Source: Kineosporiaceae bacterium SCSIO 59966 (lineage in GTDB: Bacteria; Actinomycetota; Actinomycetes; Actinomycetales; SCSIO-59966). Taken from it: a DNA stretch of 64,000 nucleotides. Where the stretch lies: positions 2,170,001 to 2,234,000 of the forward strand of contig CP052876.1 of the NCBI GenBank assembly GCA_020881835.1, read 5' to 3'. A program made the position numbers and the translations under genes. The notes below the pieces were generated by a model. It saw only the letters and a program-made list of their open reading frames with translations. It was not told the DNA's origin and ran no database searches. Shown here one piece after another: positions 3,408-21,330 of the stretch (positions are counted from its first letter, which is position 1; each line of letters begins with the position of its first letter).

Positions 3408-3424
3408 GTGTCGGTGGGCCTGCG

Positions 3425-3430
3425 TAGGGT
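3425..3430 (+). promoter_or_regulatory. Putative -10 box of the cas operon
   Basis: TAGGGT lies 7 nt before the GTG at 3438, the spacing of leaderless actinobacterial promoters. No good -35 hexamer is seen; the direct repeats at 3370-3407 occupy that place, so activator-dependent expression is possible. This box is the main reason for placing the cas3 start at 3438 and not at the earlier in-frame GTG at 3408. Confidence 0.45.
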
Positions 3431-3437
3431 GACGATC

Positions 3438-6257
3438 GTGGACGGGGGAAGCCTGGAGACCGGCGCCGTACCCGGCGTCGCCGTGCTGTGGGGGAAGTCG
3501 AACGCGGGCGGTGAGCCACACCTCCTCGTGGCGCACCTGCTCGACACCGCTGCCGTTGCTGAGGTCCTGTGGGACCGTTACCTGGCTCCCTCGTTCACCC
3601 AGCAGGTCGACGCGTCCTGCGGCGGACGGGGGCGGGACCTGTTCGTCCTGGTCGCCGGCCTGCACGACGTCGGCAAGGCGTCCCCGGCCTTCCAGTCCAA
3701 GGACGAGGTGCTCGCGCAGCGCGTGCGCGACAGCGGGCTCACCTGGCCGCCGCTCACCCGAACAGGTGCCGGGCGCTGGCACCACACGCTGGCCGGCGCA
3801 CACCTGCTCCGTCGTGCCCTGCGGTCGGCCGGATGGAGCCGACAGTCGAGGTCGTGGGTACTGCCCCTGGTGGCCGGTCACCACGGGGTCGTTCCGGACG
3901 CGAGCCGGTGGAGCGAACCACCGGAGCGAGGTGCCCAGGGTCCCGGACGCTGGCCAGCGGCTCAAGACGCCCTGGTCGCCTGGGTGGCCGGCGCACTGGA
4001 GCTGGACCTCAAGTCCGCGGAACCCTCATCGGCCCCCGCCCGCGGCGTCCAGCTGGCCCTGGTGGGAGCGGTCATCATGGCTGACTGGATCGCCAGCAAC
4101 GACCAGCACTTCCCGGGCATCGCCCAGCTGGACGACGTGTCGATGGAGCGTTCCCGGCACCGCGCGCACGAAGCATGGCGTCACCTCGGGCTAACCGGCG
4201 GATGGCAAGTCAGCCGGCTCAGCAGCGGACCTGGCACCTTCGAACGACGCTTCGGCAAGCCACCACGTGCCGCACAAACCGACGCAGTGGCGCTGGCCGA
4301 GCAGATGGAGGCGCCCGGGCTGCTGCTGCTCGAGGCACCGATGGGCGAGGGGAAGACCGAGGCCGCTCTGGCAGCGGTCGAGGTGCTCGCCCGACGCTTC
4401 GGTGCGACCGGCGTCTTCGTCGGCATGCCCACCCAGGCCACCAGCGACCCGATGTTCACCCGGGTTCGCACCTGGCTGCGCTCGGTCGACCCGGACGTGC
4501 CACTGGCCCTGCTGCACGGGAAACGACAGTTCAACCCCGAGTGGCGGGCACTGCTCGACCAGGGCCGCTTCTGCGGTGTAGACGACTTCGGGATGGACGA
4601 CTCCTACGGGACGTCGGCTCCCGTCCCCGCCACCGACCGGCCAGGTCAGGCACCGGCGGAGTGGTTTCTCGGCCGCAAACGCGGACTTCTGGTCCCCGCC
4701 ACGGTCGGGACCGTCGACCAGCTGCTACACGCAGCCACCCGAACCCGACACGTCATGCTGCGGCACACGGGGCTGGCAGGACGAGTCGTCGTGCTCGACG
4801 AGGTGCACGCCTACGACGTGTACATGTCGCAGTTCCTGTTCGAGGCCCTGCGCTGGCTGGCTCAGCAGCAGGTACCCGTGGTGCTGCTCTCGGCCACGCT
4901 GCCACCGGATCTGCGCGCGCGCCTGGTGCGCGCGTACCTGCAAGGGGCGACCCGTCGGCGGGACACCGGCGTCGAGGGCCTGCCGCACACGACTGGCTAT
5001 CCACGGGCGACGTCCGTGTGCGTGACCGGCGAGGGAGCCTCGTTCGACGTCGCCGTCAGCGCCCCCTGGCGCCCGTCGATGACCGTCCAGGTCCAGGTCC
5101 TGGACGAGGCGCCGATGGCCGGCCCGGACGACGTGGCGAGGCTCGTGCTCGAGGCCGTCACCGACGGCGGTTGTGTCCTCGTCGTTCGCAACACGGTGGC
5201 AAGGGCACAGCAGACGTACCTGGCTCTGCGGGATGCCTTGGGAGACGACGTGGTGCTGCTGCACGCTCGCCTCACGGCGGGCGAGCGCGCAGACCGTACC
5301 CAGCGACTGCTCGACGCGCTGGGTCCGCCGGTGGCAGCCTCCGGGCCTGGCCGGCCCAGACGGCTCGTGGTGGTCGCGACACAGCTGGCCGAGCAGTCCT
5401 TCGACGTCGACGTGGACCTCCTGGTGACCGACCTGGCTCCCATCGACCTGCTGCTGCAGCGTGCAGGGCGGCTTCACCGGCACGACCGTCCACCAGCTGC
5501 CAGGCCGGTACGTGTACGGAACCCGAAGGTCGTCGTGGCCGGGATGCGCCGGTCTGCGACCGGCCCGCCCGACCTGCCACCGGGTAGTGAGGCGGTCTAC
5601 GGGCGGTACCTCTTGCTGCGGGCAGCCGCCCTCGTGACGGGGGCGGACGGGGGTGCCGGTTGGTCGGTGCCCGCCGACGTGCCGCACCTCGTCAGCCGCG
5701 GCTACGGGGAGGACCCGCAGTGGCCGTCGACGTGGCAGGACGCCGGTTCGGATGCGCGCGCGGAGTGGGACACCGAGCAGGAACGGCGTGCTGACAACGC
5801 CCAGAGCTACCTTCTCGGCGGGCCGTCCGATCTGAGCAAGGACACGTTGGACGGGCTGCACGCACGAGCCACCGCCCCTCTCGACGACGACGACGCAGTC
5901 GCCGCGGTCGTCCGCGACGGCGAGCCGTCGGTGGAGGTCGTGCTGGTGCAGCGCCGGGATGAGGGCGGCTACCTGACGCTGGACGGCCGCTCGTTGGGGC
6001 CGGGTGGAGAGGCTGTCAGCGACCCGTCACTGCTGCAGACGGTGCTTGCCGCGACGATCCGGCTGCCTGCTGTGAAAGTGCTCACCTCGGCTGCGCAGAC
6101 GGAGCTCAGGCCGCTGCCGGGATGGACCGCGGACCCGTGGCTGGGCCGAGCCCGTGCGCTCGTGCTCAACACCGAGTACACGGCGCGGCTTGGCGGGTAC
6201 GCGCTGCGCTACGACCGAGAACTGGGGCTGCTGCACGAACGGGAGGGACGCCGTTGA
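3438..6257 (+). CDS. cas3: CRISPR-associated helicase/nuclease Cas3 (type I-E)
   Basis: Effector recruited by Cascade to unwind and degrade target DNA. The protein has 939 residues from the GTG at 3438 (949 from 3408). The N-terminal HD nuclease shows GLHDVGKASPAF near residue 76, HHTLAGAHLL and VAGHHGVVP. The superfamily 2 helicase shows Walker A as GEGKTEA near residue 305, the DEVH box near 454, SATLP near 486 and motif VI QRAGRLHRH near 675. All motifs are intact in one chain, so nuclease and helicase are fused as usual for I-E. The stop overlaps the TTG start of casA. Confidence 0.96.
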   Translation: MDGGSLETGAVPGVAVLWGKSNAGGEPHLLVAHLLDTAAVAEVLWDRYLAPSFTQQVDASCGGRGRDLFVLVAGLHDVGKASPAFQSKDEVLAQRVRDSGLTWPPLTRTGAGRWHHTLAGAHLLRRALRSAGWSRQSRSWVLPLVAGHHGVVPDASRWSEPPERGAQGPGRWPAAQDALVAWVAGALELDLKSAEPSSAPARGVQLALVGAVIMADWIASNDQHFPGIAQLDDVSMERSRHRAHEAWRHLGLTGGWQVSRLSSGPGTFERRFGKPPRAAQTDAVALAEQMEAPGLLLLEAPMGEGKTEAALAAVEVLARRFGATGVFVGMPTQATSDPMFTRVRTWLRSVDPDVPLALLHGKRQFNPEWRALLDQGRFCGVDDFGMDDSYGTSAPVPATDRPGQAPAEWFLGRKRGLLVPATVGTVDQLLHAATRTRHVMLRHTGLAGRVVVLDEVHAYDVYMSQFLFEALRWLAQQQVPVVLLSATLPPDLRARLVRAYLQGATRRRDTGVEGLPHTTGYPRATSVCVTGEGASFDVAVSAPWRPSMTVQVQVLDEAPMAGPDDVARLVLEAVTDGGCVLVVRNTVARAQQTYLALRDALGDDVVLLHARLTAGERADRTQRLLDALGPPVAASGPGRPRRLVVVATQLAEQSFDVDVDLLVTDLAPIDLLLQRAGRLHRHDRPPAARPVRVRNPKVVVAGMRRSATGPPDLPPGSEAVYGRYLLLRAAALVTGADGGAGWSVPADVPHLVSRGYGEDPQWPSTWQDAGSDARAEWDTEQERRADNAQSYLLGGPSDLSKDTLDGLHARATAPLDDDDAVAAVVRDGEPSVEVVLVQRRDEGGYLTLDGRSLGPGGEAVSDPSLLQTVLAATIRLPAVKVLTSAAQTELRPLPGWTADPWLGRARALVLNTEYTARLGGYALRYDRELGLLHEREGRR

Positions 6258-7882
6258 CCGGATTCGATCTTGTCCACGAGCCGTGGGTGCCGGTGATGGA
6301 GGAGGGCAGGAGACGAGATGTCTCCTTGCTGGAGGCACTGCAGCGGGCGCACGAGCTCGGGACGCTGGCCGTCGACGACGCCCTGCAGGCCGTCGCCGTC
6401 CTGCGGCAGGTCCTGCTGCCGGTTCTCCTCGACGCCTTCGGCGCCCCGCAGACCGCCGAGGAATGGGCACAGCGGTGGGAGGAAGGCGCGTTCGACGGCG
6501 AGCGCATCGAGGCCTACCTCGCCCGGCACGCCCACCGGTTCGACCTGTTCCACGACACGACCCCGTTCGCCCAGGTCGCCGGACTGCGCACGGAACGGGA
6601 CGACACCAAGCCCGTGTCCCTGCTCCTGCCTGCCGTGGCCGCGGGCAACAACGTGCCGCTGTTCTCCGCGCGTACCGAGGCCGACCCGCCGTCGTTGACA
6701 CCGGCCGAGGCGGTTCGGGCGCTGGTGTCCGGCCACTGCTGGGACACCGCCGCCATCAAGTCGGGGGTGGTGGGCGACCCGAGGGCCAAGGCGGGCAAGA
6801 CCACGGGCAACCCGACGGGGCCGCTCGGGCAGCTGGGAGTCGTCGTTCCGATCGGGCCGACACTGCGCGACACCCTGCTGCTCAACACTCCCGTCGTCAT
6901 CGACGGCCTCGCGCCCGACGACCTGCCCCAGTGGCGCCGCGAGCCCGCGACCGCCGCATGGCAGCAACGACCGGCCACCGGGTTGCTGGACCTGCTGACC
7001 TGGCAGTCCCGCCGAATCCGGCTCGTACCAGAGACGACGGGTGACGGCACCGTGGTGGTACGCCGGGTCGTGGTCGCTGCGGGCGACCGGCTGACCCAGA
7101 TCCCGGTCGACGTCGAGCCGCACACCGCCTGGCGCGTGAATCCTCGCCCCGCAGCGGGTCAGCCCTCGGTTCGCCCGGTCCGGCACGTCTCAGGACGGTC
7201 GGCGTGGCGCGGCCTGGCGGGCCTTCTGGCCACCTCGGTCCCCACCGACGACAAGGTGACGGCACCGCTCCTGCTGCAACAGATCTCCCATCTGAGAGCC
7301 GAGGATCACCTACCGCCTGACTACCCGCTGCAGGTCCTCACCGTGGGGGTCGAGTACGGCAACCAGTCGGCGGTCGTGGAGGACGTCATCGTCGACCAGA
7401 TCCCACTACCCGTCGTGGCCCTCGTCGCGGACGACTCCGTCAGGGCCGTGCTGCTCGAGGTGACCCGTCAGGCCGAGGAACTCCGGGAGGCCGCCAACAG
7501 GCTGGGGGACGACATCCGTGCCGCCTGCGGAGCTGACAAGATCCCGTGGGACCGCAGCCAGCGACTCGGCGACACGCTGGTGCAGGAGCTGACTCCCGTC
7601 GTGCGACGCCTGTTGAGGGGGCTGCAACGGGAGCCAGAGCGCACCGACGACGCCGTCCTGGCCTGGCGTCAGACAGCTGGCCGCCTCGCGCTGGCCACCG
7701 TCGAGCCGGCCCTGGACGCCGCTCCACCCACGGCCTTTCTCGGCCGTCAGGTCACCGAACGCCTCTCACTGCGTCTGGCCACCGCAGAGCGTCGGTTCCG
7801 CGACGCCATCAACAAGACGCTGGGGAACCCGATCGACCAGACCCAGGCAGAGCCAACTTCCCCCCGAGGAGCCCAACGATGA
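6254..7882 (+). CDS. casA: Cascade large subunit Cse1/CasA (Cas8e)
   Basis: Large subunit of the type I-E Cascade complex, which recognises the PAM and recruits Cas3. The protein has 542 residues. The start is a TTG whose last bases overlap the cas3 stop (TTGA), giving the family N-terminus FDLVHEPWVPV. The next segment, LLEALQRAHEL through LLPVLLDAFG, is also typical. An earlier open start near 6122 lies inside cas3 and gives an Arg-rich non-homologous extension, so it was rejected. The end overlaps casB by ATGA, so expression is probably translationally coupled to both neighbours. Confidence 0.93.
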   Translation: MTGFDLVHEPWVPVMEEGRRRDVSLLEALQRAHELGTLAVDDALQAVAVLRQVLLPVLLDAFGAPQTAEEWAQRWEEGAFDGERIEAYLARHAHRFDLFHDTTPFAQVAGLRTERDDTKPVSLLLPAVAAGNNVPLFSARTEADPPSLTPAEAVRALVSGHCWDTAAIKSGVVGDPRAKAGKTTGNPTGPLGQLGVVVPIGPTLRDTLLLNTPVVIDGLAPDDLPQWRREPATAAWQQRPATGLLDLLTWQSRRIRLVPETTGDGTVVVRRVVVAAGDRLTQIPVDVEPHTAWRVNPRPAAGQPSVRPVRHVSGRSAWRGLAGLLATSVPTDDKVTAPLLLQQISHLRAEDHLPPDYPLQVLTVGVEYGNQSAVVEDVIVDQIPLPVVALVADDSVRAVLLEVTRQAEELREAANRLGDDIRAACGADKIPWDRSQRLGDTLVQELTPVVRRLLRGLQREPERTDDAVLAWRQTAGRLALATVEPALDAAPPTAFLGRQVTERLSLRLATAERRFRDAINKTLGNPIDQTQAEPTSPRGAQR

Positions 7883-8490
7883 CGAGTAGCACGACAGCCC
7901 ACCCCGCAAGCCGGGCCGGAGCACGTCGCGCGCCGTACTGGCGCCGGTTCGTCGACGACACCGGGGGCTGGCGCGAGGAGAGACCCCCGGGTGCCGACCT
8001 GGCGGCTCTGCGTCAGGGGATCGGTCGAGAGGCGGGCACCGTTCCCGCGATGTGGCCCTACTACACCACCCTGAGTGCAGACGGTCACGTGTCGGCGGAC
8101 CTCTTGGCGGAGCACCACGCCCTCACCTTGTACGGCGTCCACCAGCAGTCCGAGTCGATGCCCATGCACCGCCCGAAGGCCGGGGTCGGGAAGGCCTTCG
8201 CCGCGCTCAGGACCCATGGGAAGTTCAGCGCCGAGGCGGTGGACCGGCGCTTCGCCGCCGCGGCTACCGCCACGTCGCTCACCGAGGCCGCCACCCATCT
8301 GCGCGGGCTCATCAGCCAGCTGCGCGTCATCGACCGCCCACTGGACTACGACCTCCTGTTCCGCGACCTTCGCGACTGGCAGTTCCCGGAGCGTCGCCCC
8401 ACCGTCCGGCGTCGATGGGGGAGCGCCTACTTCGCTGCCCACCCGGAGGCGACAACAACGAGCGGAACTCCGACCTCTGCCGATTCCTGA
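7879..8490 (+). CDS. casB: Cascade small subunit Cse2/CasB
   Basis: Small subunit of Cascade (203 residues), present as a dimer that stabilises the R-loop. The basic helical sequence, with ARRAPYWRRFVDD near the N-terminus and GVGKAFAALR followed by LRGLISQLR in the C-terminal half, fits Cse2. The ATG at 7879 overlaps the casA stop. A 28-bp gap follows before casC. Identification rests on these motifs and on position between casA and casC; Cse2 proteins are divergent in sequence. Confidence 0.9.
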   Translation: MTSSTTAHPASRAGARRAPYWRRFVDDTGGWREERPPGADLAALRQGIGREAGTVPAMWPYYTTLSADGHVSADLLAEHHALTLYGVHQQSESMPMHRPKAGVGKAFAALRTHGKFSAEAVDRRFAAAATATSLTEAATHLRGLISQLRVIDRPLDYDLLFRDLRDWQFPERRPTVRRRWGSAYFAAHPEATTTSGTPTSADS

Positions 8491-8518
8491 CCGAGACCCT
8501 TCACCCACGGGAGACCCC

Positions 8519-9655
8519 ATGACCACGTGCACGTACGTCGACATCCACGTGCTGCAGACCGTCCCACCGTCAAACCTCAACCGCGACGACGCCGGGAGCC
8601 CCAAACAGGCCATCTACGGCGGCGTGCGACGGGCCCGTGTCTCCTCGCAGGCATGGAAGCGGGCAGCGAGGAAGGCCTTCGCCGAGCAGGTCCCCCCGGA
8701 GCGGCTGGCGACACGGACCAAGAAGATCTCCGGGCTACTCTCCGACCGGCTGATCGCCCGGACGGGAATGGCGGAGGAGCACGCGACCCGACTCGCCACC
8801 ACGTTGCTGAGCCCCCTGAAGATCACTCCCGGTCGGAAGGCAGCAGAAACGGCCTACCTGCTCTTCTTCGGTAGACCTCAGCTGGAGCGGCTGGTCGACG
8901 AGGTCGCCGATCGGGCCGACGACCTGGCTGCTCTGGACGACGAGCAGCTCAAGGATGCGCTCAAGGACGTGCCCGTGCGGGACATCCTGTCCTCCGGCCA
9001 CCCGATCGACGTAGCCCTGTTCGGTCGCATGGTGGCGGATCTGCCGGGTCTCAACGTCGATGCGGCGACACAGGTGGCTCACGCCCTGTCCACGCACCAG
9101 GTGGAGCTCGAGTTCGACTACTACACGGCGGTGGACGACGAGAACCCGAAGGAGGACACCGGCGCCGGAATGATCGGCACGGTCGAGTTCAACTCCGCCA
9201 CCCTCTACCGCTTCGCCACTGTCGGGGTCCACCAGCTCATCGACAACCTGGGCGGTGACGTCGAGGCTGCCATGGAAGCGCTGCGGGTGTTCGTCTCCGC
9301 CTTTGTCACCTCGATGCCCACGGGCCACGAGAACTCGTTCGCCCACCGCACCACCCCGAGCCTGGTCAGCGTCGTCGTGCGGGACGACCAGCCGGTCAAC
9401 CTCGTGTCGGCATTCGAGGCGCCGGTCCGCGCGGACGAGCGCGGAATCGCTCAGCTGTCCGCTCTGCGGCTGGCCGAGGAGATGTCACAGGCCTCAACGC
9501 TGTGGGGCCTCACGCCGTTGAACGTCGCCTCCACATACTCCGGAGGGGACCACGACACCCTCCGTCAGGCGCTCGGTGACTCCCGGCCGTTCCCGGCCGT
9601 CGTCGACCAGACCGTCACGGCCGTGCGTCGACACGTTGCGGGGCAGGGGTCCTGA
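8519..9655 (+). CDS. casC: Cascade backbone protein Cas7e/CasC (Cse4)
   Basis: RAMP protein that forms the six-copy backbone of Cascade along the crRNA. The protein has 378 residues. The N-terminus contains the family pattern DIHVLQTVPPSNLNRDD, then GGVRRARVSSQAWKRAARKAF, and later GTVEFNSATLYRF. The ATG at 8519 is preceded by GGGAG at 8510-8514 as ribosome-binding site. The final A of its TGA is the first base of the casD ATG. Length and motifs are normal. Confidence 0.95.
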   Translation: MTTCTYVDIHVLQTVPPSNLNRDDAGSPKQAIYGGVRRARVSSQAWKRAARKAFAEQVPPERLATRTKKISGLLSDRLIARTGMAEEHATRLATTLLSPLKITPGRKAAETAYLLFFGRPQLERLVDEVADRADDLAALDDEQLKDALKDVPVRDILSSGHPIDVALFGRMVADLPGLNVDAATQVAHALSTHQVELEFDYYTAVDDENPKEDTGAGMIGTVEFNSATLYRFATVGVHQLIDNLGGDVEAAMEALRVFVSAFVTSMPTGHENSFAHRTTPSLVSVVVRDDQPVNLVSAFEAPVRADERGIAQLSALRLAEEMSQASTLWGLTPLNVASTYSGGDHDTLRQALGDSRPFPAVVDQTVTAVRRHVAGQGS

Positions 9656-10470
9656 TGCCCGGTGACGAGGCCAGTCTGCTGTTGAGGCTGGCGGGTCCAA
9701 TCCAGTCGTGGGGGACGGCAAGCCAGTTCAATCGGCGCGCGACGGGACCTGAGCCGACCAAGAGCGGGATCATCGGACTGCTCGCCGCGGCACAGGGACG
9801 GCGTCGCCAGGACACGATCGAGGACCTCCTAGACCTGAAGCTCGGCGTCCGTGTCGATGAGCCGGGGTCTCTGCTGAGGGACTACCACACGGTGAGTGAC
9901 TACCGGGGCAGGCCTCTGCTGTCGGCCAAGGTCTCGGCCAAGGGCAAGCAAGAGCCCACGTCTCCCGCCAAGACCACCCACGTCACCGAGCGCTTCTACC
10001 TGCAGGACGCCGTCTTCGTCGCCGCCGTCAGCGGCGCGACCGCCCTGCTGGAGGGGCTTCTCGACGCCCTTCGACGTCCCCGGTTTCCGCTCGCACTCGG
10101 ACGACGGTCCTGCGTCCCCACCCAGCCACTCGTCCTCACACCTCCTCCGGCGTCGGCATCAGCTGGTCAGGAGGGTCTGTGGGCCGGCGGCTGCGGGGCG
10201 GCGCTGTCCGAGGTGCCCTGGCAGGCCAACGTCGGCACGCGACGGCGCCTGCGCCGTGAGCGCAGCGCGCCGATGCATGTCGACCTTGCGGTAACCGTCG
10301 ACGACCCGATGGGGGACGACGTCCGCGTCGACGTACCGGCGACCTTCGACCCGCTGCGCAGGTCCTTCAGCTCCCGCCGCGTTCGACAGGGCTGGGTACG
10401 GGTCCCGTCGGGCATCGAGGGAGCGACGAGCTCCGAGACCCATGATCCCTTCTCGTTGCTGGGGTGGTGA
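9655..10470 (+). CDS. casD: Cascade subunit Cas5e/CasD
   Basis: RAMP protein (271 residues) that caps the 5' handle of the crRNA in Cascade. The N-terminus has the Cas5 signature LLRLAGPIQSWGTASQFNRR followed by PTKSGIIGLLAAA. Central glycine-rich strands are also seen. It starts at the ATG overlapping the casC stop and ends 6 bp before casE. Length is slightly above the usual 225-250, with an extended C-terminal region. Confidence 0.93.
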   Translation: MPGDEASLLLRLAGPIQSWGTASQFNRRATGPEPTKSGIIGLLAAAQGRRRQDTIEDLLDLKLGVRVDEPGSLLRDYHTVSDYRGRPLLSAKVSAKGKQEPTSPAKTTHVTERFYLQDAVFVAAVSGATALLEGLLDALRRPRFPLALGRRSCVPTQPLVLTPPPASASAGQEGLWAGGCGAALSEVPWQANVGTRRRLRRERSAPMHVDLAVTVDDPMGDDVRVDVPATFDPLRRSFSSRRVRQGWVRVPSGIEGATSSETHDPFSLLGW

Positions 10471-10476
10471 CGTCGC

Positions 10477-11205
10477 ATGTACCTGTCTCGAATCTGGCTG
10501 AATCCGCTGCGGACCGGCACTCAGAGGATGCTGCGCAGCCCGCAGGTGGTACATGCGGCCGTTCTGGGCGGCCTGCCGGGACAACCCGTCGAGGAACGGC
10601 CCCTGTGGCGGCTTGAGACTGAGTCCCCGCATCGACTCCAGCTGCTCGTCCTGACACGGTCACTGCCGTCGTGGGAACACGTGGTGGAGCAGGGCGGATG
10701 GCCGTCGGCTGAGGAGTCCCAGACCTTGGTGCGCAGCGTCAAGCCACTGCTGGACCGTGTCGAGCGTGGCCGGGAGTTCGCGTTTCGCTTGCGCGCCAAC
10801 CCGGTCAGTGCCACTCGCCGTCCGGCGAAGCCCTCGCCTGCGCAGGCCGAGCAACTCAGCGTGCCCGGGGCCCGCGGCGTTCGCGTCCCGCACCGCACCG
10901 CATCGCACCAGCTCGCCTGGTTTCTCTCACGGACTGCGTCGTGGGGCTTCGACATTCCGGAGACAGAGTCGGGATTCCCAGACGTGCTGCTGACGGGCCG
11001 CGAGAGGATCTCCTTCACCAAGGGAGGTGACGACGGGCGGCACCGCGTCACCCTGAGCACTGCCACCTTCGAGGGCCGCCTTCGGGTGGCCGACGTCGAC
11101 CTGCTCAGGCAGAGCCTCACGGAGGGAGTGGGCCCCGCTCGCGCCTACGGCTGTGGTCTGATCACGCTGGCTCCGGTGTCGTCCAGGTCGCGGGCGGAGG
11201 TCTGA
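10477..11205 (+). CDS. casE: CRISPR RNA endoribonuclease Cas6e/CasE
   Basis: Cuts pre-crRNA in the repeat hairpin and stays bound to the 3' hairpin in Cascade. The protein has 242 residues. The N-terminus YLSRIWLNPLRTGTQRML and the His of SPQVVHAAVLGGLPG (about residue 26, equivalent to the catalytic His of E. coli CasE) are present. The C-terminal glycine-rich loop GVGPARAYGCGLITL is also visible. The repeats downstream can form the expected short GC stem. It ends one base before cas1. Confidence 0.93.
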   Translation: MYLSRIWLNPLRTGTQRMLRSPQVVHAAVLGGLPGQPVEERPLWRLETESPHRLQLLVLTRSLPSWEHVVEQGGWPSAEESQTLVRSVKPLLDRVERGREFAFRLRANPVSATRRPAKPSPAQAEQLSVPGARGVRVPHRTASHQLAWFLSRTASWGFDIPETESGFPDVLLTGRERISFTKGGDDGRHRVTLSTATFEGRLRVADVDLLRQSLTEGVGPARAYGCGLITLAPVSSRSRAEV

Positions 11206-11206
11206 G

Positions 11207-12199
11207 ATGTGGTGGCTGGCGAACCCGCAGGACCTGCACCGGGTCGAGGACAGGCTGTCCACGCTGTACGTCGAACGCTGCCACATCGACCGTGACGACA
11301 ACGCGGTCGTCCTGGTCAATCGCGAGCGGACGGTACGCGTGCCAGCCGCCTTTGTCGCAACCGTGCTGATCGGTCCAGGGACGCGGATCACGAGCGGCGC
11401 CGTACGTCTTCTCGCCGACTCCGGTACCGCGATCTGCTGGGTCGGTGAACGAGGCGTCCGGATGTATGCCGCCGGCTTGGGACCGAGCCGTGGCGCAGCA
11501 CTGCTGATGCGGCAGGCGTACCTGGTGACACGAACCAAGGAGCGGCTCGCTGTCGCCCGCCGCATGTACGCCATGAGGTTCCCCGGGGAGGACGTGGACA
11601 GCCTCACGATGCAACAGCTGCGGGGCAGGGAAGGCGCTCGAGTGAAACGGCTGTACCGGGAACACTCCGCTCGGACCGGAGTGCCGTGGACCGGCAGGGA
11701 GTACCGGCCGGGGCAGCCCTTCGACGCTGGCGACGACGTGAACCGTCTGCTGTCTGCCGGGCACAGCGCCCTCTACGGCATCTGTCATGCGGCGATCGTC
11801 GGCATCGGGGCGAGCCCCGCCCTGGGCTTTGTGCACACCGGTGGTGCGACGTCGTTCGTGCTGGATGTCGCAGACCTGTACAAGGCGGAGTACACCATCC
11901 CCCTCGCGTTCGACCTCGCCGCCCGGGGGCACGTCGACGAGCGAGACATTCGCACCGCATTCCGGGACCGCGTAGCCGATGGCCATCTGATGAAGCGCAT
12001 CGTGCAGGACGTCAAGTCGCTCCTGCTCGGTGAGGAGGCCGACCCAGAAGAGGCCGATGAGCACCATCTGTGGGACGAGTTCGATGGCAACGTCCCGGGC
12101 GGCGTCAACTGGGCTCGGGAACTGGCCGAAGGATGGGACTCCCACTCCCTCATCGGAGTCACCGGTCCCGACGTCCCCGAGCCTCCGGTGCCCTGGTGA
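11207..12199 (+). CDS. cas1: CRISPR integrase Cas1 (type I-E)
   Basis: Integrase subunit that, with Cas2, inserts new spacers at the leader end. The protein has 330 residues. The catalytic Glu is in LRGREGARVKRLY, the His in LGFVHTGG, and the Asp pair in SFVLDVADLYKAE, so all metal ligands are present. The C-terminal acidic and proline-rich tail is somewhat longer than the E. coli protein. The stop overlaps the GTG of cas2 by GTGA. With intact active-site residues adaptation should be possible. Confidence 0.95.
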   Translation: MWWLANPQDLHRVEDRLSTLYVERCHIDRDDNAVVLVNRERTVRVPAAFVATVLIGPGTRITSGAVRLLADSGTAICWVGERGVRMYAAGLGPSRGAALLMRQAYLVTRTKERLAVARRMYAMRFPGEDVDSLTMQQLRGREGARVKRLYREHSARTGVPWTGREYRPGQPFDAGDDVNRLLSAGHSALYGICHAAIVGIGASPALGFVHTGGATSFVLDVADLYKAEYTIPLAFDLAARGHVDERDIRTAFRDRVADGHLMKRIVQDVKSLLLGEEADPEEADEHHLWDEFDGNVPGGVNWARELAEGWDSHSLIGVTGPDVPEPPVPW

Positions 12200-12474
12200 C
12201 CGTCGTCATCCTCGTGGCAGCGCCCGAGGGACTGCGCGGTCATCTCACGAGGTGGCTGGTCGAGGTGGCAGCTGGGGTGTTCGTCGGCAACCCCAGCCAG
12301 CGGGTCAGGGAGCGGTTGTGGGTGGTGCTGTCGGACCGGATTGGGGATGGTCAGGTGATCATGATTGAACCGGCCCGCAACGAGCAGCGCTGGACTGTGC
12401 GTACCGCCGGCCGCGACCGTTGGCACCCAGTTGACTATGACGGACTGATTCTCAGCGCTCGTCCCCGTCGGTAA
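12196..12474 (+). CDS. cas2: CRISPR adaptation protein Cas2 (type I-E)
   Basis: Small subunit of the Cas1-Cas2 integrase (92 residues). The N-terminal beta strand VTVVILVAAPEGLRGHLTRW and the segment GVFVGNPSQRVRERLW are diagnostic for the I-E type. The GTG at 12196 overlaps the cas1 TGA. The gene ends only 18 bp before the first CRISPR repeat, so any leader function must lie largely within its 3' coding sequence. Its last codons include TCGTCCCCG (12459-12467), a 9-nt match to the start of the repeat. Confidence 0.94.
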   Translation: MTVVILVAAPEGLRGHLTRWLVEVAAGVFVGNPSQRVRERLWVVLSDRIGDGQVIMIEPARNEQRWTVRTAGRDRWHPVDYDGLILSARPRR

Positions 12475-12492
12475 AGTCCCTGGTCAGCAAGT
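12431..12492 (+). promoter_or_regulatory. Possible CRISPR leader/promoter buried in the end of cas2
   Basis: Only 12475-12492 is free of coding sequence before repeat 1. TTGACT (12431-12436) and TAAAGT (12472-12477) are the only promoter-like hexamers nearby, but their 35-bp spacing is too long for one sigma-70 promoter, so TAAAGT may act alone as an extended TANNNT box. No AT-rich leader is seen. The array could simply be read through from the cas operon. Confidence 0.3.
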
Positions 12493-15400
12493 GTCGTCCC
12501 CGCCCACGCGGGGGTCATCCGCTGGTCCAGCAGGATGCTGACCAGCCTCCACTGTCGTCCCCGCCCACGCGGGGGTCATCCGTCGCCGACGACGCGACCC
12601 ATCGTCTCGAACCGGTCGTCCCCGCCCACGCGGGGGTCATCCGCGTCAGCTTCAGGAGGAGGCGTCGTTGTCGGGGTCGTCCCCGCCCACGCGGGGGTCA
12701 TCCGTACACGTGGGTGCCGGGTGACACCGGGATCGCGTCGTCCCCGCCCACGCGGGGGTCATCCGGGGGCTGACTGGTCGCCGTGGCGCACCGAGATGTC
12801 GTCCCCGCCCACGCGGGGGTCATCCCCCACCGACAGAAGGGAAGTACGCAGCCATGGCGTCGTCCCCGCCCACGCGGGGGTCATCCCCGGTTCATCGACG
12901 CTTCGGCGTCGGGTAGCACGTCGTCCCCGCCCACGCGGGGGTCATCCCACCTCAGACCGCCTGCCACTCGTGGGTCATGTGTCGTCCCCGCCCACGCGGG
13001 GGTCATCCGTCGGCCGCCGCGCACCTCCACGGCGAGCTGGTGTCGTCCCCGCCCACGCGGGGGTCATCCAGCTGCTCCCACGCGTCACCGCACGCCGGCG
13101 CGGTCGTCCCCGCCCACGCGGGGGTCATCCGTGCTCTACGTCAACACACGGACGCGTGAGCTGGTCGTCCCCGCCCACGCGGGGGTCATCCGGCCCTATC
13201 TCTGATCTCTGACTCGGTGAGCTCGTCGTCCCCGCCCACGCGGGGGTCATCCCAACCGGGTCGAGGTCCGCCGCGCCCGCATCGAGTCGTCCCCGCCCAC
13301 GCGGGGGTCATCCCTGGACCGCGAGACTCCTCGGCTCCGAGCACGCGTCGTCCCCGCCCACGCGGGGGTCATCCGCGACCTGGGGAGATCACCGCCGCGA
13401 TCCTGACGTCGTCCCCGCCCACGCGGGGGTCATCCCCGGTCGGACGACCGTGGGCTGACGTGCGGACGGTCGTCCCCGCCCACGCGGGGGTCATCCGTAC
13501 GTGTGGGTCCCCGGGGACACCGGGATCACGTCGTCCCCGCCCACGCGGGGGTCATCCGGCCACCGTCTCCGAGCTGGACGCCGCGCTCGTGTCGTCCCCG
13601 CCCACGCGGGGGTCATCCGCTGATCTCGATCTCCTGGTTGGGAGGAAGGACGTCGTCCCCGCCCACGCGGGGGTCATCCCAACGGCACCATCCCCGCCGC
13701 CGAGTACGAGGTGGTCGTCCCCGCCCACGCGGGGGTCATCCCTCTCCTACCTGGGCCTCATTGACCACGACGACGTCGTCCCCGCCCACGCGGGGGTCAT
13801 CCCCCGGCGATCGACCGGATCGCCCTGTCGGCGATGTCGTCCCCGCCCACGCGGGGGTCATCCGGCGGCCCAGCAGCGGGTCGAGCACGTGTCCGAGTCG
13901 TCCCCGCCCACGCGGGGGTCATCCCCCCTTGTAGTACCCGGGGGCCAGGGCGACGAAGTCGTCCCCGCCCACGCGGGGGTCATCCCTCGAGGGCCTTGGT
14001 GTCGAGCTCGGCGGCTTGGTCGTCCCCGCCCACGCGGGGGTCATCCCAGCGCCAGCCAGCCGACGATCGTCACGACCGGGTCGTCCCCGCCCACGCGGGG
14101 GTCATCCCGCGGCGATGTCGTTGGTGAGGATCGTCAGCGTGTCGTCCCCGCCCACGCGGGGGTCATCCGTAGCACCCCCCGGAGGGGGTCTTTTCGGGGA
14201 GGTCGTTCCCGCCCACGCGGGGGTCATCCGCGCACGCGCTACGAGGTGCTGCGCCGAGACGGGTCGTCCCCGCCCACGCGGGGGTCATCCCCAGTCCGAC
14301 CCGTTGTCGAGGGTGGGGCACTGGTCGTCCCCGCCCACGCGGGGGTCATCCGGGCTGGTCGTCCCACTCGTGCTCGCCTCGGGCGTCGTCCCCGCCCACG
14401 CGGGGGTCATCCCGAAGACGCCGGGCTGTCAGACGCCGATGCTGAGTCGTCCCCGCCCACGCGGGGGTCATCCCTCTCCCATCGAGGGCATCAAGGCCGC
14501 GTTCGCGTCGTCCCCGCCCACGCGGGGGTCATCCGGTCCTGCCGGAGCTGCTGTCTACGTTGCTGGGGTCGTCCCCGCCCACGCGGGGGTCATCCCCATG
14601 ACCCCTACGGCTGTCCCGGGGGGTTGCCGTCGTCCCCGCCCACGCGGGGGTCATCCGCTCTTCCTGCCAGGTTGTCGTCCACTCGTCGTGTCGTCCCCGC
14701 CCACGCGGGGGTCATCCCGGCCGTCACGAGCGCGCGGCGAGCCAGGCCCGGTCGTCCCCGCCCACGCGGGGGTCATCCGCGGACCCTCCAGCGCGCTCTC
14801 GCCGCGGGGGAGTCGTCCCCGCCCACGCGGGGGTCATCCGGCATCGGCCGCAGCCGCACGTCCCGCGGCAGCGTCGTCCCCGCCCACGCGGGGGTCATCC
14901 CTCCCCAGCGCACGGGCGCTCATCGACGCGCTCGTCGTCCCCGCCCACGCGGGGGTCATCCCTGATGGACGTGCTGTCGCTGCTCGGCGGTGGCGTCGTC
15001 CCCGCCCACGCGGGGGTCATCCGTCCGGTTCGACGGGGAGTCGGCGGCATCCCAGGTCGTCCCCGCCCACGCGGGGGTCATCCCGCGGCCTCCGGCTTGA
15101 CCGCGCCCTCGGCGACGTCGTCCCCGCCCACGCGGGGGTCATCCCTTCGTCGTCCACGTCGCCGACCCCACGTACACGTCGTCCCCGCCCACGCGGGGGT
15201 CATCCGTCCACGATGGTCCGCAGGTCCCGCAACGGGACGTCGTCCCCGCCCACGCGGGGGTCATCCGCGTCTCCTCCACGGCCGCCGCGTCCGCGGACCG
15301 TCGTCCCCGCCCACGCGGGGGTCATCCGTACACCGCGCGTCTACGGTTGGTGTTGCGCCAGTCGTCCCCGCCCACGCGGGGGTCATCCCGCGTCCCGCTC

Positions 15401-18400
15401 GGTGACCTCGACCGGCACCCGGTCGTCCCCGCCCACGCGGGGGTCATCCGTCAGGCCAGCCAGTTCGTCGCACCGCTGGACGGTCGTCCCCGCCCACGCG
15501 GGGGTCATCCCCCCCAACGGCACAGTCTGAACTGTGCCGGTTTGTCGTCCCCGCCCACGCGGGGGTCATCCCCCCAACGCCCATCTGGAGGGCAGTGGAC
15601 GCGCGTCGTCCCCGCCCACGCGGGGGTCATCCGCAGGCCTGCGTACTGATCGAGGGTCATCGATGGTCGTCCCCGCCCACGCGGGGGTCATCCGGTCGTC
15701 ACCGAGGCGTCCGTGTCCTTCCAGGCGTCGTCCCCGCCCACGCGGGGGTCATCCCGTCTGGTCCTGCTGGCGGTTGATCGTCTCGCCGTCGTCCCCGCCC
15801 ACGCGGGGGTCATCCTCGGTACTGCCTCACGACGCTTGGACTCCTGACGTCGTCCCCGCCCACGCGGGGGTCATCCCGCAAGCAGGAACGCACCACCCAG
15901 CAGGGACGCGTCGTCCCCGCCCACGCGGGGGTCATCCCGACTCCAGGGACTCATCGGTGATCGACCGGTCGTCGTCCCCGCCCACGCGGGGGTCATCCCG
16001 ACTCGTTCTCACTCATCGCACTTCCCTCTCGGTCGTCCCCGCCCACGCGGGGGTCATCCCTCTCCATCCGCTACGGCACGCCAGGCTTCCAGGTCGTCCC
16101 CGCCCACGCGGGGGTCATCCGACGAACAGCACCCGGGTCCGTCCGGTTCGGCGGTCGTCCCCGCCCACGCGGGGGTCATCCCGGATGAACGGCCGGCTGC
16201 GGTGGTCGCTGGACGTCGTCCCCGCCCACGCGGGGGTCATCCCGATGTCCGAGAGTGGCACGCCCGGGCCATAGCGTCGTCCCCGCCCACGCGGGGGTCA
16301 TCCCTCACGCCACGGACAGCCTGTCGGCGTGTCGCTGTCGTCCCCGCCCACGCGGGGGTCATCCCTCACGCCACGGACAGCCTGTCGGCGTGTCGCTGTC
16401 GTCCCCGCCCACGCGGGGGTCATCCCTCACGCCACGGACAGCCTGTCGGCGTGTCGCTGTCGTCCCCGCCCACGCGGGGGTCATCCGGGGACGCGGGTGA
16501 GCGGAACTGCCTCCGACATGTCGTCCCCGCCCACGCGGGGGTCATCCCCCGGTGAGCGTGTCGGCGATGACCGGCCCCGGGTCGTCCCCGCCCACGCGGG
16601 GGTCATCCCCCGGTGAGCGTGTCGGCGATGACCGGCCCCGGGTCGTCCCCGCCCACGCGGGGGTCATCCGCACCCGAGGCAGTCGCCGTCAGGGTTAGCC
16701 TCGTCGTCCCCGCCCACGCGGGGGTCATCCGGCGGCGGCGACGGCGCTCCAGTTGCTCATGGCGTCGTCCCCGCCCACGCGGGGGTCATCCGTCGTTGGG
16801 TGAGGAGTGGTCGAAGGTCGCCCAGTCGTCCCCGCCCACGCGGGGGTCATCCCCCCGGCGACTCGCAGTCCGCGTACCTCTTCGCGTCGTCCCCGCCCAC
16901 GCGGGGGTCATCCCGACGCAGAGCGAGGGTGGTGGTCTTGTAGTGAGTCGTCCCCGCCCACGCGGGGGTCATCCCGGGACGTCGCTGTCCGGGTTCTCGG
17001 ACGAGGCGTCGTCCCCGCCCACGCGGGGGTCATCCGCCCCTCACCACACAGCAGGTAGCGGCGCTGTTGTCGTCCCCGCCCACGCGGGGGTCATCCCGCG
17101 GCCAGGTCCTCCCCGCCCATCGCCGCGGCGTCGTCCCCGCCCACGCGGGGGTCATCCGTCCACCTCAACCCCCACCAAGCCGCGTGACGCGTCGTCCCCG
17201 CCCACGCGGGGGTCATCCCATCGTCTGGCAGGACCCGCCACCGGACGGGCGGTCGTCCCCGCCCACGCGGGGGTCATCCGCGCGGGTGGGCGAGCAGGGC
17301 GGCGTGAGCCTCGTCGTCCCCGCCCACGCGGGGGGTCATCCCGGACTGTCGGCCCGGCTCGCCGCGCTCGACGGGTCGTCCCCGCCCACGCGGGGGTCAT
17401 CCGTAGCCCTCCGAGTCCGGGTTGAACGCGACGTCGTCGTCCCCGCCCACGCGGGGGTCATCCGCGCTCGCGGAGGGCATGGACTCGCAGGTTGTGGTCG
17501 TCCCCGCCCACGCGGGGGTCATCCGAAGTGGCGCCAGGCATAGGACGCTGAGTACTCGTCGTCCCCGCCCACGCGGGGGTCATCCGTGGTGTGGTCCACG
17601 CCGGACCAGGACGCCTACGTCGTCCCCGCCCACGCGGGGGTCATCCGTGAGTCCCACTGGACCGGTTCGCGTCGGCCGCGTCGTCCCCGCCCACGCGGGG
17701 GTCATCCCCGGATGACGGTGCGTGTCGCGGTCGGGAAGCGGTCGTCCCCGCCCACGCGGGGGTCATCCTACGGGTCGATGTTGAAGGTCTTGGTGGTCAT
17801 GGGTCGTCCCCGCCCACGCGGGGGTCATCCGTACGGGTAGAGGGAGTCCGCGTTGGAGACGGCGCCGTCCCCGCCCACGCGGGGGTCATCCGTTGACCTC
17901 GGCGCTCGATGAGGTGCCGGGCCTGTCGTCCCCGCCCACGCGGGGGTCATCCGGACAGGTACTGCGACGGGTCGGTCGCGTCGTTGTCGTCCCCGCCCAC
18001 GCGGGGGTCATCCACCCGGGCATCAGCCAGCCGCCGGAGTCGAACGGTCGTCCCCGCCCACGCGGCGGTCATCCGTAGTGGTGTGGCTGGCTGGCGTCGT
18101 CGGTCACGTCGTCCCCGCCCACGCGGGGGTCATCCCCGCCTGCTCGACGAGGCGGACCCGCGGTCGGCGTCGTCCCCGCCCACGCGGGGGTCATCCCGCC
18201 GCGGTGGTGTGGGAGCCGACCCCGGCCGCGTCGTCCCCGCCCACGCGGGGGTCATCCGTCCCATGCCCCCGACGATGTACCGGACAGCCGGTCGTCCCCG
18301 CCCACGCGGGGGTCATCCGTACGGGCCGACGTAGTTCCCTGCGATGACGGCGTCGTCCCCGCCCACGCGGGGGTCATCCGGCCTCCGGGCCGGCGTCCAG

Positions 18401-21122
18401 ACCGAGAGCCGCGTCGTCCCCGCCCACGCGGGGGTCATCCCCCATCCTGCGCGTCGAGCAGGCTGTTCAGCTCGTCGTCCCCGCCCACGCGGGGGTCATC
18501 CGCGACGAGCCGGCCTGGTCCACGACCACCCGGGGTCGTCCCCGCCCACGCGGGGGTCATCCGTTCGCGGAGGCGGATCCTGCGACGCAACGGCTGTCGT
18601 CCCCGCCCACGCGGGGGTCATCCGGCCGTTCGGAGATCAGCTTGGCGGTGCGGTACGTCGTCCCCGCCCACGCGGGGGTCATCCACCGACCGTCCCAAGG
18701 AGGAGGTCACGCTGGAGGTCGTCCCCGCCCACGCGGGGGTCATCCGGTTGCCGCCGCCATCGGCGGCGGGACGAAGGTGTCGTCCCCGCCCACGCGGGGG
18801 TCATCCGTCATGCCGTCGTTGGACCGGCCGCGGCGGGAGGTCGTCCCCGCCCACGCGGGGTCATCCCGACTCACGGAGCAGGTCCCCGGCGGACGCCATG
18901 TCGTCCCCGCCCACGCGGGGGTCATCCGGCGTTGAGCGAGGCCCGGCAGTGGTCGGACCGGTCGTCCCCGCCCACGCGGGGGTCATCCGTCGCACCCCCG
19001 CTACGGCCAGAAAACGCAAGAGGTCGTCCCGCCCACGCGGGGGTCATCCGTTCTTCGAGTTCCGGCCGACGTTCCTCCTGTCGTCGTCCCCGCCCACGCG
19101 GGGGTCATCCGGTAACGGCGCCGGTGAACGGGTTGAAGATCCAGTCGTCCCCGCCCACGCGGGGGTCATCCCCACGTGTACGCCGCCGCGATGAGCCTGG
19201 GCTGGTCGTCCCCGCCCACGCGGGGGTCATCCGTGAACTACACGCGCACCAGGCTCGTCGCTTTCGTCGTCCCCGCCCACGCGGGGGTCATCCAGGCTGA
19301 TCTGTTGCTGACGCCTCCCAGATTGAGTCGTCCCCGGCCACGCGGGGGTCATCCCCCACCCAGGCGGTCGCCACCACCCAGGCCCCCGTCGTCCCCGCCC
19401 ACGCGGGGGTCATCCCGGCAGCACGGTCGCCGGCGTCCACGACACGAGGTCGTCCCCGCCCACGCGGGGGTCATCCGTGGCCTGGGCTGGCGGTTGCTGC
19501 GGCACTATCGTCGTCCCCGCCCACGCGGGGGTCATCCCCGAACTCCGGCCACCCCAGCAGCGCGGAGGAGGTCGTCCCCGCCCACGCGGGGGTCATCCCC
19601 GCTGCGCGTTGATGCCCTCCAGCAGGGGGAGGTCGTCCCCGCCCACGCGGGGGTCATCCGCCGACCCCCCCTTCCTGGCCCGGGCGCTCGCGGTCGTCCC
19701 CGCCCACGCGGGGGTCATCCCGTCATGCAGACCGCCCCCGAGGACGTGTCCCGGTCGTCCCCGCCCACGCGGGGGTCATCCGATCGTCGCTCCGGCCCTG
19801 TTCAGCCGCGGCCCGTCGTCCCCGCCCACGCGGGGGTCATCCCTTCGTCGTCCACGTCGCCGACCCCACGTACACGTCGTCCCCGCCCACGCGGGGGTCA
19901 TCCCGCCTGGTCCTGCTGGCGGTTGATCGTCTCGCCGTCGTCCCCGCCCACGCGGGGGTCATCCCGCCGGCTCCTACCACGACCTCGTGGACTCCGAGTC
20001 GTCCCCGCCCACGCGGGGGTCATCCTGCAGACCACATCACCACACGAGTGATAGGAGTGTCGTCCCCGCCCACGCGGGGGTCATCCCTGCCCCAGGGCCT
20101 CCGGGCCGGCGTCCAGGCCGTCGTCCCCGCCCACGCGGGGTCATCCCCCGAAGGTCGGCCCCGTTCTCCCTGACCCGGTGTCGTCCCCGCCCACGCGGGG
20201 GTCATCCCTGGCGCAGCGCCCTTACGTGGGCGACGAGGACGTCGTCCCCGCCCACGCGGGGGTCATCCGCGCACGAGACCGTGAAGCTGCTGCGGTATCT
20301 CGTCGTCCCCGCCCACGCGGGGGTCATCCTTGGTGGGAGGTTCCCCGCTCAGATGTGCTGGCGTTGTCCCCGCTCACGCGGGGGTCATCCGGTGTGATCC
20401 ACGATGGTGGACATCAGTAGGGGGTCGTCCCCGCCCACGCGGGGGTCATCCCTACGAGGGCACCCTCGTCCTGTTCCGTGACTTGTCGTCCCCGCCCACG
20501 CGGGGGTCATCCCTGGGCCGCGTTCGAGGCCGGCGTCGAGCTGTCGTCGTCCCCGCCCACGCGGGGGTCATCCCGGGTACGGGAACGGGGTACCTGCGCG
20601 CAGACGGTCGTCCCCGCCCACGCGGGGGTCATCCCCACCCGACGGACGCGCCCCACTGCTCCTGGTAGTCGTCCCCGCCCACGCGGGGGTCATCCGCCCG
20701 GTATGACCCACTCGTAGGAGTCCGACTCGTCGTCCCCGCCCACGCGGGGGTCATCCGGACTTCCACGGCGACGGAGTCGGCAGCAGCCAGTCGTCCCCGC
20801 CCACGCGGGGGTCATCCGAACGGCCACACGGCGGCACAGTCGGTGACCATGTCGTCCCCGCCCACGCGGGGGTCATCCTCTTCCAGTCGCCGGAGGGGAG
20901 TTGCTGGAGCGGTCGTCCCCGCCCACGCGGGGGTCATCCCTCCGTCCCGTCCCTGGTCGAGCAGTACGCACGGTCGTCCCCGCCCACGCGGGGGTCATCC
21001 GCCGGTAGCGACCCTTCTGGACGATCATGGGGTGTCGTCCCCGCCCACGCGGGGGTCATCCCGACAACGCCGACGTCGCCCTCGTCGTCGCCAAGTCGTC
21101 CCCGCCCACGCGGGTGTCATCC
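12493..21122 (+). CRISPR. Type I-E CRISPR array, 142 repeats and 141 spacers
   Basis: The 28-bp repeat begins GTCGTCCCCG and ends GGGGTCATCC, with a CCCCGC/GCGGGG stem like other I-E repeats. Repeat starts were followed one by one from 12493 to 21095. The period is 61 bp (33-nt spacers) except for rare one-base changes: 34-nt spacers after repeats 20, 87 and 107, an extra G in repeat 80, and one base missing in repeats 105, 108 and 126. Substitutions occur in repeats 29, 89, 92, 113, 130 and 142. The hairpin and handle orientation put transcription on the plus strand, with the newest spacers next to cas2. A truncated 143rd repeat follows at 21156. All long open frames inside are artefacts. 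Confidence 0.99.
14169..14201 (+). terminator. Spacer 28 with an intrinsic-terminator-like hairpin
   Basis: The 33-nt spacer contains ACCCCC, a CGGA loop, GGGGGT and then CTTTT, a 6-bp GC stem followed by a short U tract, in the direction of array transcription. Such hairpins are common phage terminators. It may lower transcription of the 114 repeats downstream. Confidence 0.55.
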
Positions 21123-21155: not shown

Positions 21156-21330
21156 GTCGTCCCCGCCTGTCAAGGGACAGTAGGAACTGCCCAGAGGCGG
21201 ACGGTGAAATTTGCCCGCTGACGGCCACGGGAACTGCCCGGTCGTTCCGGGCCCACACGGGCGTCGTCCGTCACCCGGCATCGCCACCTCCGCCCCGTGC
21301 GGTGTCGTCCTCCCCACGCGGGGGTCATCC
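21156..21330 (+). repeat. Decayed trailer end of the CRISPR array
   Basis: After repeat 142 come three damaged copies: a truncated one holding only the first 12 bases (21156-21167), a degenerate 29-nt copy at 21241-21269 starting GTCGTTCCGG, and a 27-nt copy at 21304-21330 starting GTCGTCCTCC and ending GGGGTCATCC. They are separated by an IS-like remnant and by one spacer-sized segment (21270-21303). This is the expected state of the oldest, leader-distal end. Confidence 0.8.
21168..21240. mobile_element. Possible remnant of an insertion-sequence end
   Basis: A 73-bp segment breaks repeat 143 after its twelfth base. It starts TGTCAAGGGACAG and holds two copies of GGAACTGCCC (21183-21192 and 21230-21239) plus an AT-richer GTGAAATTTGCCC. 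Starting with TGT and carrying repeated internal motifs resembles the ends of IS21-type elements, but no transposase is present and the match was not searched. Confidence 0.4.

Follow-up and report, generated by a model that had tools for sequence, protein, structure and literature searches.

A putative CRISPR leader written into the 3′ end of cas2 at a type I-E locus with a large array in Kineosporiaceae bacterium SCSIO 59966

A locus of clustered regularly interspaced short palindromic repeats (CRISPR) was analysed in a 64,000-nucleotide stretch of Kineosporiaceae bacterium SCSIO 59966 (contig CP052876.1, positions 2,170,001 to 2,234,000 of the forward strand, assembly GCA_020881835.1), hereafter called the window, to which the coordinates below refer. 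Judging from the sequence, the array leader is probably dual-coded with Cas2, in a complete type I-E locus with a large and normally polarised array. The cas2 stop codon (TAA, 12472-12474) lies only 18 bp from the first repeat. A separate leader would have little space there, and the leader overlaps the 3′ end of cas2. Counting backwards from the first repeat, the leader element ACTGA occupies positions −49 to −45 and is composed of the wobble base of a Gly codon (GGA), the Leu codon CTG and the first base of an Ile codon (ATT), all within the Cas2 motif DGLIL. No second leader beyond chance expectation was found in the window.

The arrangement proposed here is one in which the cas2 frame runs into the leader, the ACTGA element is spelled by the Gly-Leu-Ile codons of Cas2, and a downstream anchor, CTGGTCAGCAAGT, directly precedes the first repeat. 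Spacer addition would take place where leader and repeat meet, and cas2 would stay intact because only the repeat is copied. We infer that the −49 element may serve spacer integration, possibly through the binding of Cas1-Cas2 or of a host factor, rather than transcription of the array.

The spacing between cas2 and the array recurs among relatives. A script that measured this gap examined 54 of 80 Cas1-related loci and recognised cas2 in 18, of which 11 have the same 18 bp gap, the other gaps being 21 to 116 bp. Leader-repeat junctions were searched with a pattern that included the anchor motif and excluded the −49 element. Of 394 genomes of the class, 30 contain such a junction (control pattern in 3). 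In one family it occurs in 21 of 35 genomes, all of them sampled earlier, and in a third family in 28 of 200 (control pattern in 2); the only junction among 22 genomes of a second family is a chance match (L127). Several loci carry a second array whose leader lies outside cas2. Once two chance matches with no array (L127 and L128), leaders identical over 75 nt, leaders containing N and those with less than 110 nt upstream had been left out, 115 unique leaders were available. The 37 leaders lying in the cas2 frame comprise 28 short-tail cases, the window's included, in which cas2 ends soon after DGLIL, and 9 long-tail cases, which carry the element within a longer Cas2 tail; 34 of these 37 have the 18 bp spacing between stop codon and repeat. 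The remaining 78 leaders were classed as non-coding, among them L109, which had earlier been read as coding.

The element recurs at a fixed offset both inside and outside cas2. Of the 78 non-coding leaders, 51 have an A[CG][TC]GA motif whose first base is exactly at −49, while the count of this motif at other offsets from −100 to −16 averages 0.54 and reaches at most 7. A strict count, from which four non-coding rows with an upstream DGL-like peptide were removed (L109 being one of them), leaves the element in 49 of 74 leaders. Among the cas2 leaders it stands at −49 in 25 of 37, i.e., in 17 of 28 short-tail and 8 of 9 long-tail cases. A later-fetched set of 59 junctions, partly drawn from genomes already sampled and hence not fully independent, shows the element, when taken alone, in 31 of 49 non-coding leaders and in 6 of 9 short-tail ones, and holds no long-tail case. 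Conservation of the non-coding leaders is 0.83 bits per base at −50 to −41 and 0.12 to 0.14 at −100 to −61; positions −20 to −1 are also conserved, unlike −100 to −61. In the first set, coding and non-coding leaders share an ungapped identity of 0.55 and 0.63 over −55 to −41, against 0.25 and 0.29 in a shifted control (largest values 0.39 and 0.42), the non-coding side of this comparison including L021, whose cas2 ends 15 bp before the repeat. Over −100 to −56 the identity falls near background (0.34 to 0.38 versus 0.29 to 0.31, and 0.28 to 0.29 versus 0.28 to 0.29).

Codon choice at the element provides a further line of evidence. The D codon of DGLIL stands at −54 in all 28 short-tail leaders. 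The next codon, for Gly, contributes its wobble base as the start of the element and reads GGA in 27 of the 28, whereas the long-tail Gly codon is GGC in 9 of 9 and never GGA (Fisher p = 8e-8). The later-fetched set alone shows GGA in 9 of 9 short-tail copies. The first set has 19 short-tail frames, of which 18 use GGA at the site, as against 82 of the 301 Gly codons at their other positions (p = 3.6e-9). For Ile, ATA or ATT is chosen in 11 of 14 cases at the site and in 12 of 102 elsewhere (p = 4.5e-7). For these counts the frames were read from stop to stop, so that a few codons may precede the real start.

Several observations weigh against a leader encoded within cas2. Among non-coding leaders 27 of 78 lack the strict element, as do 11 of 28 in the short-tail group, where 9 of the 11 read ACTAA instead. 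Conservation of the anchor is partly ascertained because the anchor was part of the search pattern, a bias from which the −49 element is free. The Ile bias is weaker than that for Gly, with ATA or ATT in 15 of 22 short-tail and 1 of 8 long-tail cases (p = 0.012), and a low GC content at third codon positions (0.00 to 0.38) is also found at codons −24, −23 and −19 from the DGL motif in both groups, so that it is no proof by itself. Since the sequences are related, all p-values given here overstate independence and are optimistic. Finally, two leaders classed as non-coding have the look of decayed cas2 ends, L023 at 18779 with a disrupted cas2-like frame and L150, and some of the shared sequence would then reflect descent. 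The second arrays of these two relatives follow such an apparently decayed cas2 3′ end plus a leader, and new arrays may be seeded by copying a cas2-leader unit. These two loci speak for the view that second arrays arose from a duplicated unit of cas2 end and leader that has yet to diverge. Such leftover homology is nevertheless quite improbable as the whole explanation, given that the flanks at −100 to −61 have diverged while −50 to −41 and −20 to −1 have not.

It is also unlikely, in our estimation, that this is an ordinary array placed near the end of cas2, the leader being only the stretch after the stop codon and the upstream similarity reflecting conservation of the Cas2 protein. Leaders in cas2 are indeed conserved over their entire length, and DGL is a conserved Cas2e motif present in the E. 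coli protein. Yet leaders outside cas2 share the element and its offset without any reading frame, and the codon bias tracks the element rather than the position in the protein, GGA being chosen where its last base belongs to the element and not in the long-tail genes. A more serious contender, possible though on balance doubtful, holds that the −49 element acts in transcription of the precursor CRISPR RNA, as a promoter or activator site, and not in adaptation. Leaders commonly hold promoters, and a −10 region overlapping the first repeat has been predicted in Streptomyces avermitilis (PMC4762764). However, no sigma-70-type promoter was found in 12200-12600 (0 sites, 0.1 expected), in a scan limited to that promoter type, and the element keeps a constant distance from the edge of the repeat, as would also fit an integrase.

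Altogether, a leader dual-coded with Cas2 would provide a concrete and testable map of leader elements, placing an anchor at −14 to −2 and a further element at −49, for bacteria that, to our knowledge, lack the E. coli form of integration host factor (IHF). It appears reasonably probable, with somewhat less assurance than for the window itself, that this locus belongs to a broad group of actinobacterial type I-E systems in which an integration element at −49 is written into Cas2 codons or into a lineage-specific Cas2 tail, making the adaptation protein and its landing site inseparable by deletion. The window has both marks of the proposed group, namely the 18 bp gap between stop codon and repeat and an ACTGA-like −49 element formed by DGLI codons. 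The long Cas2 tails, which are QPNENP-like in 8 of 9 cases, suggest that part of such a tail may exist as a translation of leader DNA. If true, this would account both for the 18 bp spacing seen repeatedly and for some of the Cas2 C-terminal tail; deletion or recoding of cas2 in such hosts may damage the leader as well.

The cas genes themselves leave little doubt about the type of the system. They lie on one strand in the order cas3-cas8e-cse2-cas7e-cas5e-cas6e-cas1e-cas2e from 3408 to 12474 (Table 1), and seven of the eight exceed the curated cut-off of type I-E models. This holds for the signature effectors cas8e and cse2 together with cas7e, cas5e and cas6e, for which the NCBIfam and PADLOC I-E models agree, and for cas1 and cas2 of the I-E type (TIGR03638 and TIGR01873). 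Cas3 scores 327.9 bits against the full-length NCBIfam equivalog PRK09694, below the cut-off of 569, and passes two domain models as well as the PADLOC Cas3e model. Its Walker A (GEGKT), DEVH and HD (LHDVGKAS) motifs, which we take to be the catalytic ones, are readable. The GTG start of cas2e, chosen by reading the sequence, overlaps the cas1 stop codon; the profile search for this gene used an open reading frame (ORF) beginning at 12070. The locus is thus a complete type I-E CRISPR-Cas system, as the initial annotation had described it, and is presumably active in this strain. Among the nearest matches of Cas1 are those in a Sporichthyaceae metagenome-assembled genome (81%) and in Frankia (79%), its nearest named relatives being actinobacteria. 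Horizontal transfer, considered from these similarities, was not adopted.

Table 1. Coordinates of the cas genes, leader, array and phage-matching spacers in the window
Feature	Position	Strand	Basis
cas3, HD nuclease and helicase	3408..6257	+	TIGR01596, TIGR01587 above cut-off; PADLOC Cas3e E=4.5e-208
cas8e/cse1 ORF, real start internal (profile match from residue 49)	6122..7882	+	TIGR02547 E=7.9e-50, above cut-off
cse2/cas11e ORF, real start internal (match residues 142-298)	7546..8490	+	TIGR02548 E=7.2e-30
cas7e ORF, real start internal (match residues 153-468)	8075..9655	+	TIGR01869 E=3.6e-91
cas5e	9655..10470	+	TIGR01868 E=2.2e-49
cas6e	10477..11205	+	TIGR01907 E=3e-20
cas1e	11207..12199	+	TIGR03638 E=1.5e-107
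cas2e, 92 amino acids	12196..12474	+	TIGR01873 E=1.2e-15; PADLOC Cas2e E=3.8e-38
Putative leader, −55 to −1, sharing last 37 nt of cas2	12438..12492	+	window sequence, leader comparison
Candidate leader element ACTGA, −49 to −45	12444..12448	+	window sequence, leader comparison
Leader end motif CTGGTCAGCAAGT, directly 5′ of first repeat	12480..12492	+	window sequence, leader search
CRISPR array, 142 repeats of 28 nt, 141 spacers	12493..21122	+	repeat scan
Spacer 30, 3 mismatches to metallophosphoesterase gene, Curtobacterium phage Buldak	14291..14323	+	spacer-phage comparison
Spacer 108, 3 mismatches to DNA primase/helicase gene, Arthrobacter phage Adumb2043	19050..19082	+	spacer-phage comparison
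Spacer 138, 33/33 identical to DNA polymerase I gene, Arthrobacter phage Berrie	20879..20911	+	spacer-phage comparison
Decayed distal end: half repeat 21156-21167, degenerate repeats 21242, 21303	21156..21330	+	sequence scan

A consensus scan of the window recovered 142 repeats and 141 spacers in one unbroken run (12493-21122), so that the count made earlier from the letters alone was exact and the repeat-finder check returned no smaller number. The repeat consensus, GTCGTCCCCGCCCACGCGGGGGTCATCC, is a 28-nt CCCCGC-N4-GCGGGG palindrome which, with spacers of 32 to 33 nt, has the form expected of a type I-E repeat. Of its copies, 132 are perfect, 5 have one mismatch and 1 has two, while four others score 5 mismatches owing to an indel or shift. 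Spacers measure 33 nt in 136 cases, 34 nt in 3 and 32 nt in 2, and 137 of the 141 are distinct. Throughout the genome, a single contig of 3,095,448 bases (the window having a GC content of 73%), the repeat occurs 138 times at up to 3 mismatches, always on the forward strand, and its reversed control pattern does not occur at all. This number equals the 132 + 5 + 1 copies of the array and thus leaves no second array of the GTCGTCCCCGCCCACGCGGGGGTCATCC repeat, the placement of the 138 copies within the array resting on this equality of counts.

The polarity of the array is normal, in the pattern expected from growth at the cas2 end and decay at the far end. Of the variant repeats, 9 belong to the distal half and 1 to the half beside cas2 (Fisher p = 0.017), and the last full repeat is followed by a half repeat and two degenerate repeats. 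Long repeats are prone to expansion or collapse during assembly, yet it is highly improbable that the size of the array is an assembly artefact, considering the distinct spacers, the single contig and the normal polarity of the variant repeats. With so many distinct spacers, the risk of miscounting could be confined mainly to identical spacers in tandem, which are found at 16304/16365/16426 and 16548/16609. Other internal similarities were observed. Spacers 44 and 54 (15145 and 15755), ten units apart, recur as the adjacent spacers 121 and 122 (19843 and 19904), the first pair being identical and the second differing by 1 mismatch, through either duplication with deletion or repeated acquisition. 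Spacers 4 (12704-12736) and 17 (13497-13529) differ at 6 of 33 bases, as if one site had been sampled twice from diverged invaders. At the distal end, the half repeat is broken off after 12 nt by sequence beginning TGTCAAGGGACAGTAGGAAC (21167-21200), a region that resembles another place in the genome (G000:C1:1792611-1792644) over 34 nt at 91% and is perhaps the end of an insertion element.

The array is large but not exceptional and belongs to the upper tail of the distribution among relatives. A general I-E repeat pattern with no mismatch allowed was applied to 394 genomes of the class, this one included, the counts being made per strand and possibly adding up several arrays. The pattern matched in 102 genomes, with at least 10 copies in 66 of them, and the median of the richer-strand count in these 66 is 33.5. 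The present genome has 134 copies by this pattern, and 4 of the 65 others exceed this value on one strand (140, 144, 154 and 164); one of 38 other genomes drawn as relatives has 160. The initial annotation's statement that type I-E arrays usually hold far fewer spacers therefore fits the median, while its suggestion of rarity was oversold, given four larger counts in the class. A record size is ruled out by these relatives and by the longest array of CRISPRCasdb, which in the covered parts of that source holds 587 spacers (PMC7145573). That array, from Haliangium ochraceum, is likewise one very long single array, four times larger than the present one (PMC7145573). By itself, the array is one more large example of a well-known kind.

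Targets could be assigned to a few spacers. The array was split in two for BLAST searches, which listed 62 and 81 phage records; four complete phage genomes were picked from these lists and compared with all 141 spacers, five rounds of letter-shuffled spacers serving as a control on the same phages. Up to 6 mismatches, there are 8 matches, which come from spacers 30 (one), 108 (three) and 138 (four), while no shuffled spacer falls below 8 mismatches; in addition to the genes listed in Table 1, matches of this set fall in a Microbacterium phage. Weaker matches number 1 at 7, 4 at 8 and 35 at 9 mismatches, against 0, 0.6 and 7.4 for shuffled spacers. This excess, which was left unused, may stem from the base order lost by shuffling or from real weak matches. 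No accepted target was found for the other 138 spacers in the four phage genomes compared. Hence the view of the array as a dense record of past invaders has direct support for 3 of 141 spacers, whose matches to phage genes are far above the shuffled control, the rest having no accepted match. As for the two causes suggested in the initial annotation, a single genome fits long-term adaptation activity and weak spacer loss alike. Scans of viral contigs with spacer cores gave 0 matches in four scans, and the polymerase spacer led to 3 contigs.

The proposed comparison of spacers with mobile elements thus yielded three clear phage matches and no accepted plasmid match. Most listed plasmid matches lie on Streptomyces plasmids, run over long stretches at about 65% and appear to be other arrays aligned in phase with the repeat. 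Three short plasmid matches, in which the best spacer still has 11, 10 and 6 mismatches, and two more phage places with 10 and 6 were not accepted because they are expected by chance in collections of such size (E 0.03 to 0.1). The long matches of about 65% on Streptomyces and Kitasatospora plasmids (H81-H87) suggest that these plasmids carry I-E arrays whose repeats are similar. Many separate pieces of the array also match L143 (MT835722.1), a scaffold from human faeces recorded as an unverified phage, which may be of bacterial origin or contain a CRISPR array itself. When the array was compared with its own genome and 40 of 503 candidates were scored, no self-target was accepted; besides the array itself, this comparison returned the decayed tail (79%) and two short matches (76 to 77%).

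In 132 of 141 spacers the first base is G or C, a count that drops to between 79 and 113 for positions 2 to 8. This fits a base derived from the protospacer adjacent motif (PAM) between repeat and spacer, as described for S. avermitilis (PMC4762764) and E. coli (PMC8482600) in the covered parts of these papers. The bases preceding the best protospacers of the three phage-matching spacers, a sample of three only, are GAT, GAG and AAC, to be set beside an AAG-like PAM.

Among known systems, the I-E system of E. coli shares with the present locus the gene order cas3-cse1-cse2-cas7-cas5-cas6-cas1-cas2, repeats of about 29 nt and spacers of 32 to 33 nt. Its leader is intergenic and contains an IHF site, whereas the leader described here overlaps cas2. 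The I-E system of S. avermitilis likewise has eight I-E cas genes with an array downstream in the same direction, its PAM is AAG with the last G kept in the repeat, and acquisition has been shown experimentally there, as reported in the covered parts of the paper (PMC4762764). It differs by a second array upstream of the cluster, with 100 unique spacers in total, compared with one array of 141 spacers here, and its two leaders are aligned in Figure 1B of that paper with no cas2 overlap mentioned in the parts covered (PMC4762764). No published statement of a leader inside cas2 was found in the literature on leaders and cas2, covered as titles and abstract openings, with most subscription papers outside that coverage; one paper so covered, PMC5608340, contains the wording 'within the cas2'. 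A wide survey of leader motifs reportedly appeared in Current Biology in 2021. Closeness of cas2 and the array is already known in one case, that of Streptococcus thermophilus CRISPR4, which we take to be a type I-E system. There, the stop codon of cas2 falls on part of the repeat itself (a review, PMC5826314, which cites Carte et al. 2014), and cas2 extends up to the array much as in the window. The covered parts of that source describe no leader element and state that new spacers were not added there, whereas the present locus has an 18 bp gap and a conserved element (PMC5826314).

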